Shown: piece after piece, positions 55,396-61,635 of the stretch
Layout: the number at the start of each line of letters is the position of its first letter
Numbering within the stretch: position 1 is the stretch's first letter
DNA from: an uncultured Pirellulaceae bacterium
GTDB taxonomy: Bacteria > Planctomycetota > Planctomycetia > Pirellulales > Pirellulaceae
DNA: 64,000 nt
Direction: 5' to 3'
Assembly (NCBI GenBank): GCA_905480235.1
Contig: CAJQPP010000006.1
Span: 62,001 to 126,000 of the forward strand
Notes under the pieces: generated by a model
Told to the model about the DNA's origin: nothing
Databases searched by the model: none
Seen by the model: the letters and a program-made list of their open reading frames with translations, nothing else
Made by a program: the position numbers and the translations under genes

Positions 55396-56775
55396 ATGCG
55401 ACGCTTTTTAATCTCCCTATTATTTGGTGTTCTCCTATGTGGCACCCCAAACGGTAAAGCTGCGACTCAAGATAAAAGCAGTAACGCTCAATCTGAGGGC
55501 GTCGAGTGGACGGAGCGTTTCAACCAACAATTTTTAAAACGCGCACCGCTCCTGGACCAAACCGCACCGCAGGTATCGGCTTTCAATGACCAAGGGAATG
55601 CTTTTGCATTATCCCGCACCCGAGGCAAATACACGGTATTGGTTTTTGGTTGCTTGACGTGACCACCGTTCCTAAAAAATGTCTCCGGTCTGGAGGCTGT
55701 GTATCAGGACTATCACAAGAAAGACGTCAATTTTTATTACGTTTACAAAAGCCTCGCGCACCCTGAGGTCAACGGTTTCGTTGCCCCTCACACCCTCTCC
55801 GAACGACTCAAACATATTGCCGAGTTTCAAAAAATCACGGGCTCTCAAGTCCCTTGGCTTTGTGATTCCATGGAGGGAGCACTGGCTCGCGCATTTGGCA
55901 ACGCGCCCAACGGGGAATTTGTCATCAATCCGCAGGGAAAAGTAATCCGCCAACGATTCTGGTCCAACCCGGTGACCTTACGAGCGGACTTAGCGAAACT
56001 GATCGGTCCCGTTAACCCGGCAACCACTGCCCAGCAGGCACTGCCGGCTTTTAAAATGCCACATCGCGAAATCGCCAGTGGTGTCGTCCCGAGGTTGAAA
56101 CTTCCTGCTGATTTACAGCCCCTACCTTGCCAGATTCAGCCAAGCGAATTTCCGGCTTATGCGAAACTGCGAGCCGAAGCGACTCCCGGACTGTTCACCG
56201 AACGCGGGAGCGGAAAAATGTATCTGGGCATTTATTTGGATCCGCTGTATCAAGTGCACTGGAACAACCGGGCCGGAAATGTCTCCGTACAAATCGAAGT
56301 TGCGGACGGTATGGAAATCAGCCAAGCGAATTTGGTTGGGCCTGCGGTAGAAGCGGATGCCGATCTTGACCCACGCATGTTTCTTGTGGATCTGCAGCGG
56401 AAGACATCACTTGAAAAAACGATTTCAGTCGCGCTGACTTATACGGTGTGTGATGATGCCGATACCTTTTGCCAGACCTTTTCCCAGTCCTACGAGATTG
56501 AACTCCGAGGCGATCGGCGTTTGGGCAGTCGACCCGGTATTTTCATGCCCAGCATGTTCGCTCGCGCTGCAGATTTGGATCGCGACGGAAACGGTCTGAT
56601 CGAGGGCAGCGAATTTCCTGCAAATCGAGCGACGCTTTTTCTTAGCCATATGGACAACAACCTGGACGGTGCCGTCGATCAAGATGAGTTAAAAGCTTTT
56701 ATGGCTCTGTTCAACGACGGTCGAGGATTTGATTCGCCTTACGATGACGGCAAGAATCCGAACAAAGACCCATGA
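55396..56775 (+). CDS. Secreted deiodinase-like selenoprotein with EF-hands, in-frame UGA
   Basis: Reading TGA 55660-55662 as selenocysteine (codon 89) gives one protein of 459 residues. It has a signal peptide (residues 1-23), a thioredoxin-like domain in which the Sec sits in LVFGCLTUPPFLKN, matching the FGSCTUPPF site of iodothyronine deiodinases, and the following FYYVYKSLAHPEVNGF, which fits the deiodinase Y..EAH region. The C-terminus has two EF-hand loops, DRDGNGLIEGSEF and DNNLDGAVDQDEL. A hairpin with a GGUCU loop begins 18 bases after the UGA. The frame stays open to 56775, and RBS GGAG lies before the ATG. If Sec is not decoded the protein would stop at 88 residues. Substrate unknown; deiodination is not implied. 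Confidence 0.85.
55660..55697 (+). promoter_or_regulatory. Predicted bacterial SECIS element, deiodinase-like gene
   Basis: After TGA 55660-55662 there are 24 bases, then the loop GGTCT (55687-55691) enclosed by a 6-bp stem GTCTCC (55681-55686) and GGAGGC (55692-55697), one pair being T-G. The GGUCU loop and the distance match the E. coli fdhF type SECIS that SelB binds. Confidence 0.75.
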
Positions 56776-60543: not shown

Positions 60544-61635
60544 TCATGGGTCTTTTGGTTTCCCTGAGGCAGTGAGCTCCAGATGGGATTCGATTCGGCG
60601 TTGATAGTCAATCAAGTCTCTTTGATCTTCCGGAAATCCGAATTCCTGTAACGCTTGGGGATTTTTGGCAAGTGCTCGGCGTACTCGCACTAGCAGTTTT
60701 TTTTGCCGCGGGCTAAGGAAATCCTTAACCTCCCAACGGCTCTTTCGCCCGCCCAACAAGGCGTTCATTTTAATGGCTTGCAGTTCCGTCAAAGGGAGGT
60801 ATCCATAGATAGAATTTCTTAAATAGTACTTCTGCTCAGCTTTTGCTACTTGCTTGGTCTCCAGGTCTTCTCGCCATGTGATGATGTTTTCGACACCCGC
60901 TTTTTGCGCTGTCTCTTGTTGCTCATCATTAAAGGTATACACCGCGTCGGTGCATTTCATCTGCCGAGCTTTTGCCAACAGGCTGGCATAGGAAATGACC
61001 GCTGGGTCAAACACAACATGAACGACCTCGCGGGGACCAGCCCATACTGCGCGAGTTGCAAAAACACCTTCCAAAGAACCCAACTGGGCCTCACCTTCCC
61101 AGTATCACAACATGGCAAAGCTGGCCCGTTGCAAGGAATAACGCCACCCCAGTGCCAAGGCCTGCAAGTAAGCCGGTGGTTTCCGACCCGCAGCCTCTAG
61201 ACTGGCATACATCCGCTCAGCCAAAGGGGTGACTTCCCAAATACTGTCTTTGCGTGGAATCAGATCTTTACCGTTTGCATCCAAAAACCGCACAACAGGA
61301 TTATTCCAAGCAGGTTCCGAGAAGGATTTCAGTAAATCTTCATCCTCGGTTTTGTTATTGAAAATAACCACCGGAACGAATTGATCTTCGATCGCTTCGA
61401 CCATTAACGGCAATGACAGCGGACCGCTGCCAAAATCCTGACAGGTCGCTCAGCCAGGGACCTCTTGAAACAAAACAAAAATAGGTTTGCCGGTTTTAGA
61501 GGAAACTTTTTTAGCCGCTTCTAGATCACGCCCCCAAGCCACAGCGCCCAATTCAACAGGGGGGTCTGCAGCCATTGCTGAAGGCGGTACTAAGGACAGA
61601 CCAACGAGAAAAGTGACCCAACACCACAACTGCAT
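60544..61635 (-). CDS. Double-selenocysteine protein, VPGUxT thioredoxin-like and MsrA-like domains
   Basis: Reading two in-frame TGA codons (61452-61450 and 61107-61105) as Sec gives a single 363-residue protein. It has a signal peptide (1-22, ending SAMA), a thioredoxin-like domain with QEVPGUATCQDFG (Sec62, a UxxC site; I recall NCBI naming a VPGUxT (seleno)protein family), then a second domain where ASFAMLUYWEGE aligns with the catalytic GCFWGVE of methionine sulfoxide reductase A (Sec177), with GVFATRAVWAGPREVVHVVFDPAV continuing that match. A hairpin with a GGUCC loop follows the first UGA; the second UGA has only a weak one. A GGGAG site precedes ATG 61635. The MsrA-like domain lacks the longer loop of real MsrA, so activity is uncertain. 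Confidence 0.8.
61068..61107 (-). promoter_or_regulatory. Weak candidate SECIS after the second Sec codon
   Basis: At the same 24-base distance from TGA 61107-61105 a GGTTC-type segment (61080-61076) occurs, but the flanking pairing is only a few base pairs (CCA/TGG with mismatches). It is therefore much weaker than the other two. Confidence 0.25.
61415..61452 (-). promoter_or_regulatory. Predicted bacterial SECIS element, first Sec codon
   Basis: The TGA is at 61452-61450. After 24 bases comes the loop GGTCC (61425-61421), between GGCAGC (61431-61426) and GCTGTC (61420-61415), a 6-bp stem with one G-T pair. The geometry is the same as at 55660. Confidence 0.75.

Follow-up and report, generated by a model that had tools for sequence, protein, structure and literature searches.

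The window, by which we mean the whole stretch of 64,000 nucleotides of planctomycete DNA that was analysed, contains on its reverse strand a single gene whose product is predicted to carry two selenocysteines (Sec, U), one in a thioredoxin (Trx)-like domain and the other in a domain derived from methionine sulfoxide reductase A (MsrA). The features of the gene are as follows, in the order of translation:

60544-61635, reverse strand: the whole gene of 363 codons with internal TGA read as U, from the ATG at 61635 to the stop TGA at 60546-60544, with Sec at positions 62 and 177.
61570-61635, reverse strand: signal-peptide-like N-terminus (residues 1-22), with a hydrophobic core and a cleavage-like site AMA-ADPP, as read from the sequence.
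61276-61536, reverse strand: Thioredoxin_7 domain, residues 34-120 (PF13899, 35.5 bits against a cut-off of 27).
61450-61452, reverse strand: TGA for the predicted Sec62 of VPGUATC, in a UxxC centre with Cys65 (61443-61441); the site is U or C in all homologues and Cys65 is invariant.
61414-61432, reverse strand: SECIS-like hairpin 1, UGGCAGCG(GUC)CGCUGUCA, 8 bp with a GUC loop, from a constrained apex search.
60850-61131, reverse strand: MsrA-derived domain (roughly residues 169-262) in which both active-site loops are absent, as seen in profile, hhalign and Foldseek comparisons.
61105-61107, reverse strand: TGA for the predicted Sec177, in the motif LUYWEGE; homologue and structure-profile alignments put it where MsrA has its nucleophile.
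61075-61092, reverse strand: SECIS-like hairpin 2, with an AGUU apex at +22 from the UGA and a 5-bp core, from the apex search and relatives.
61027-61029, reverse strand: Glu203, equivalent to the MsrA catalytic Glu, as aligned to MsrA structures and to an MsrA of the same genome (L053).
60952-60954, reverse strand: Cys228, which in the alignment with MsrA takes the place of the loop-2 Tyr and is a candidate for the resolving Cys.
60664-60846, reverse strand: helical part at the C-terminus (roughly residues 264-324), similar to the helical domain found in C. oremlandii MsrA.

Judged by its sequence, the frame from 61635 to 60544 is confirmed as one selective unit, split only by two TGAs that replace redox cysteines of the homologues. 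A contig scan for relatives returned one close relative, in Planctomycetaceae bacterium isolate Cli_10 (L033), which is 90% identical to the window protein, keeps both internal TGAs and stops with TAA. Since TAA stands at the end of that gene while the internal TGAs are retained, the third TGA of the window gene is an ordinary stop. Compared with this relative, dN/dS is 0.18 before U62, 0.07 between the TGAs and 0.10 after U177, low in all three segments, so that purifying selection acts on the entire frame. TGA ends 10 of the 32 long open reading frames of the window and is therefore not reassigned as a whole. The same genome encodes SelA (576 bits), SelB (382 bits), SelD (359 bits) and a tRNA-Sec with the anticodon TCA (UCA), which completes the Sec machinery whose absence would have spoken against the two-TGA frame of the preliminary description. 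Its SelD (L054, G000:C123) has an in-frame TGA of its own (AGUAGK), in the N-terminal active-site region. A pseudogene, a sequencing error or a TGA reassignment has nothing in its favour beyond the two TGAs, and with the same TGAs found in L033 and 14 further aligned genomes, with the low dN/dS, the normal use of TGA as a stop and the complete machinery, we regard its probability as practically negligible. That each of the two TGAs falls at a redox Cys/Sec site is likewise upheld by the homologues: neither among the 31 aligned ones nor in three more complete genes is either site, 62 or 177, occupied by an unrelated residue, and only U or C is found.

A SECIS hairpin is predicted downstream of both UGAs, strong in the window itself at site 1 and resting on covariation among the relatives at site 2. 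The score of hairpin 1 was reached by none of 300 synonymous recodings and its stem is present identically in L033. Hairpin 2 of the window is weaker than in most relatives, a fraction of 0.07 of recodings scoring equally well, and plain RNA folding of the 60 nt after site 2 did not separate it from shuffles (z 0.64). In nearly all members with Sec at both sites, a GUU-containing apex is fixed at 22 nt from the second UGA. Over 15 sequences 95.2% of the cells of hairpin 2 are paired and four of its seven pairs have changed on both sides, a result equalled by 0-1 of 500 shuffles and collapsing when the hairpin is slid along the alignment. The hairpins also track Sec: genes with Cys at the second site have no such hairpin, and at both sites U genes differ from C genes, each with p about 1e-4. 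The weakness of the window's hairpin 2 is what one would expect if only Sec62 were inserted and most ribosomes stopped at the second UGA, leaving a 176-residue Trx protein as the main product. We consider this very unlikely, in view of the covarying hairpin, the AGUU apex at its fixed distance and the strength of purifying selection downstream of the second TGA. UGA codons at Cys positions, SECIS hairpins and a full set of Sec machinery together identify the window protein, at the sequence level, as a bacterial selenoprotein with two predicted Sec residues.

The protein belongs to the NCBIfam family NF041383 (VPGUxxT family thioredoxin-like (seleno)protein, type 2), with 377.4 bits against a cut-off of 275 over residues 28-315 and model positions 1-287. 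It has the VPG-(U/C)-x-x centre of this family in the form VPGUATC, so the assignment to a VPGUxT family in the preliminary description was right as to the family, properly VPGUxxT, but not as to the centre, which is UxxC and not UxT. The family exceeds its cut-off in 32 of 392 Planctomycetota genomes. We counted the states of sites 62 and 177 in 34 complete Planctomycetota homologues, consisting of the 31 aligned copies read through TGA and the three additional genes: 17 are UU, eight UC, nine CC and none CU. The association between the sites has a Fisher p of 0.0009, phylogeny not being corrected for, and the absence of CU is not independent of phylogeny, with few pairs available to an independent-pairs test of the dependence between sites. 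A further gene, in G264, is split across two contigs (L092, L093) and also has U at both sites. On the gene tree the UU genes fall into one large group and, besides it, the pair that includes the window gene and a further gene, L017; given this placement, the second Sec of the window gene was either gained independently or kept from an ancestor. We rejected the view of the CC forms as a mere result of lost Sec decoding, as SelA is present in seven of the nine CC genomes. Cys65, Trp179 and Glu203 are invariant in the 31 aligned homologues, Cys228 is found in 27 of them, and the fusion is conserved, with 115-122 residues between the two redox centres.

The thioredoxin-like nature of the N-terminal domain, already suspected from the sequence, is borne out by the PF13899 match above the gathering cut-off, and Foldseek matches for this half are DsbD-gamma, DsbH and AGR-like proteins. 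Export, also claimed at the outset, finds support as a reading of sequence: the N-termini of the homologues are hydrophobic and signal-like, with a lipobox evident in at least one (L008), and the protein therefore probably acts outside the cytoplasm. The n-region of the window protein contains no positive charge. The Trx domain is also found without the MsrA core, either alone or with other C-termini (L094-L097). L094 (G158:C249) lacks the core and keeps the VPGUxxC Trx domain together with the C-terminal LSPRQ helical part, while in L095 (G193) and L096 (G237) a different, long helical C-terminus is fused to a VPGU/EPGUxxC Trx domain. A separate small exported family with a Trx-like domain and an NPGU/HPGU/DPGUxGC centre occurs in five genomes (L099-L103).

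The second half derives from MsrA. The family alignment profile matches PDB MsrA structures with E about 1e-9, with U177 aligned to the nucleophile and E203 to the catalytic Glu. The AlphaFold model of the window protein is confident (pLDDT 91.4, pTM 0.86), and its best solved match in Foldseek is the C. oremlandii selenoprotein MsrA 4u66 (E 1.1e-7, 208 columns, TMt 0.62), followed by other MsrAs and Trx-like proteins; a search of viral structures gave nothing significant. In hhalign, residues 143-299 align with the Sec-containing MsrA of the same genome (L053; E 9e-14), reaching into the C-terminal helical part, and the deletions in this alignment take out the two active-site loops and with them the loop-1 Tyr; Cys228 falls on the loop-2 Tyr. 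The own-genome enzyme (L053:1330-2157, G000:C145) is a selenoprotein MsrA of the C. oremlandii type with a GUFW motif and a signal-like N-terminus, and beside it lies a Cys-type exported MsrA (L052). In E. coli MsrA, E94 is the catalytic Glu and Y82 and Y134 are the substrate-stabilising tyrosines of loops 1 and 2. The window protein has the Cys/Sec-Phe/Tyr-Trp nucleophile motif as U177-Y178-W179, with the invariant Trp, and lacks both of these tyrosines. It also misses the curated MsrA cut-offs (PF01625 PMSR, 18.1 of 23.7; TIGR00401, 13.9 of 108.1), because both active-site loops and their tyrosines have been lost. The proposal of an MsrA catalytic site at the second Sec therefore holds as far as homology is concerned, in the nucleophile, the Trp and Glu203, but not as far as identity is concerned: L053 passes the cut-off that the window protein fails, and so we describe the domain as MsrA-derived, its identity as an MsrA being only putative.

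What, then, would this protein do? Established at the level of sequence are the frame, the pair of predicted Sec sites with their SECIS hairpins, the ancestry of each domain, and the retention of Sec177, Trp179 and Glu203. The reading we propose, and to which we give about an even chance, is that of an exported NF041383 double selenoprotein, in which a Sec62-x-x-Cys65 Trx domain reduces in cis a loop-trimmed, MsrA-derived domain acting as a putative sulfoxide-type reductase. Sec177, with Glu203 as the proton donor, would attack a sulfoxide-type oxidised substrate, methionine sulfoxide being the likeliest class, and form a selenenic acid, which Cys228, where present, would resolve into a selenenylsulfide. 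This bond would then be reduced by a UxxC centre, either that of the same chain or that of another molecule, and the centre would in turn be recharged by a membrane electron donor, e.g. a DsbD/CcdA-type protein. With the two MsrA loops gone, the selenium site would lie open to the Trx domain. A reductase recharged in cis fits the absence of the loops, the presence of an own UxxC domain and the Cys in place of the loop-2 Tyr, and we consider the in-cis electron relay and the contact between the domains plausible. The loss of the substrate-binding tyrosines, the failed MsrA cut-offs and the lack of Cys228 in four of the 31 homologues count against an in-cis sulfoxide reductase. The system is unlikely to be 'self-contained', as had been suggested, since the chain has no internal electron source and would have to draw on a donor in the membrane, for which the DsbD_TM protein encoded in the same genome is a candidate. 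Among 312 flanking open reading frames from 32 genomes, no family was common to more than five genomes, the top one looking like a cluster of spurious frames, and there were no conserved neighbours pointing to a substrate or donor.

It is conceivable, though we think it somewhat unlikely, that the MsrA-derived domain has given up sulfoxide reduction and, itself reduced by the Trx domain, instead serves as a selenol/thiol module acting on protein disulfides, on peroxides or on a small molecule bound to it. The loss of both loops and tyrosines and the missed PMSR and TIGR00401 cut-offs are in line with such a role, and the Cys at the Tyr position would provide a Sec177/Cys228 redox pair; however, a module acting simply on disulfides or peroxides would have no use for an acid-catalyst Glu and a Phe/Tyr-Trp pocket, and both of these are invariant. 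Clearly less probable still is an arrangement in which one chain carries two independent enzymes, a UxxC domain that serves other periplasmic proteins and an MsrA-like domain that a separate reductase recharges. It would agree with the occurrence of the Trx domain without the MsrA core, but sits poorly with a site-2 Sec found only together with a site-1 Sec and with a fusion that holds the two centres at a nearly constant spacing. Returning to the putative reductase recharged in cis, the presence of Sec177 only alongside Sec62, with no CU form and with SelA in most CC genomes, is what would be expected if the selenium of the Trx domain serves site 2; this one-way dependence fits recharging in cis, over few independent events. 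We would extend this, tentatively, to a selenium-to-selenium relay in one chain, where the UxxC Trx domain reduces in cis a Sec site that evolved from MsrA by removal of its gating loops, and where Sec at the catalytic site may be tolerated only once the partner domain has Sec.

The window contains a second selenoprotein candidate at 55396-56775 on the forward strand, an exported deiodinase/redoxin-like protein with the motif FGCLTUPPF, one in-frame TGA (55660-55662) and a C-terminal EF-hand. Gene callers split the double-Sec protein of NF041383 at each TGA, and because of these cuts annotation can easily miss the half derived from MsrA. The natural UU, UC and CC forms represent a ready series for asking why selenium is used twice and whether one Sec site depends on the other, and an MsrA fold that has lost its substrate loops offers a test of which parts are needed for sulfoxide chemistry.

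The family itself is known. NF041383 was listed in 2022 without a domain or motif (PMC9312934) and appears in a 2026 review as the hypothetical protein OS_HP5, with one Sec per protein (PMC13188914). The window gene is a member, matching at full length and sharing the VPGU centre; it differs from the family as reviewed in having a second Sec, in the MsrA-derived domain, a trait it shares with roughly half of the members identified in Planctomycetota. The family name is silent on this domain, and in the part of the literature covered we found no description of the second Sec or of the MsrA ancestry, so that both this Sec and the nature of the second half are apparently undescribed there. With Thioredoxin_7 proteins, DsbD-gamma and DsbH the window protein has in common the Trx fold, a redox pair and a probable extracytoplasmic location, while its UxxC centre, the VPG before the Sec and the fused MsrA-derived domain set it apart. 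L053 is homologous over residues 143-299 and has a single Sec, at the nucleophile; in contrast to the window protein, it has its two loops intact and scores above the TIGR00401 cut-off (110.8 of 108.1). In C. oremlandii MsrA (CoMsrA), loops L1 and L2 move as another chain gains access to the catalytic residue; the proton comes from Glu55, and the reductant is glutaredoxin, not thioredoxin (PMC4479559). CoMsrA (4u66, 4lwj-4lwm) resembles the window protein in its Sec nucleophile, Phe/Tyr-Trp, catalytic Glu and extra C-terminal helical domain. However, CoMsrA is a stand-alone enzyme without Cys, whereas the window protein lacks L1, L2 and their tyrosines and has Cys228, a Trx domain within the same chain and predicted export.
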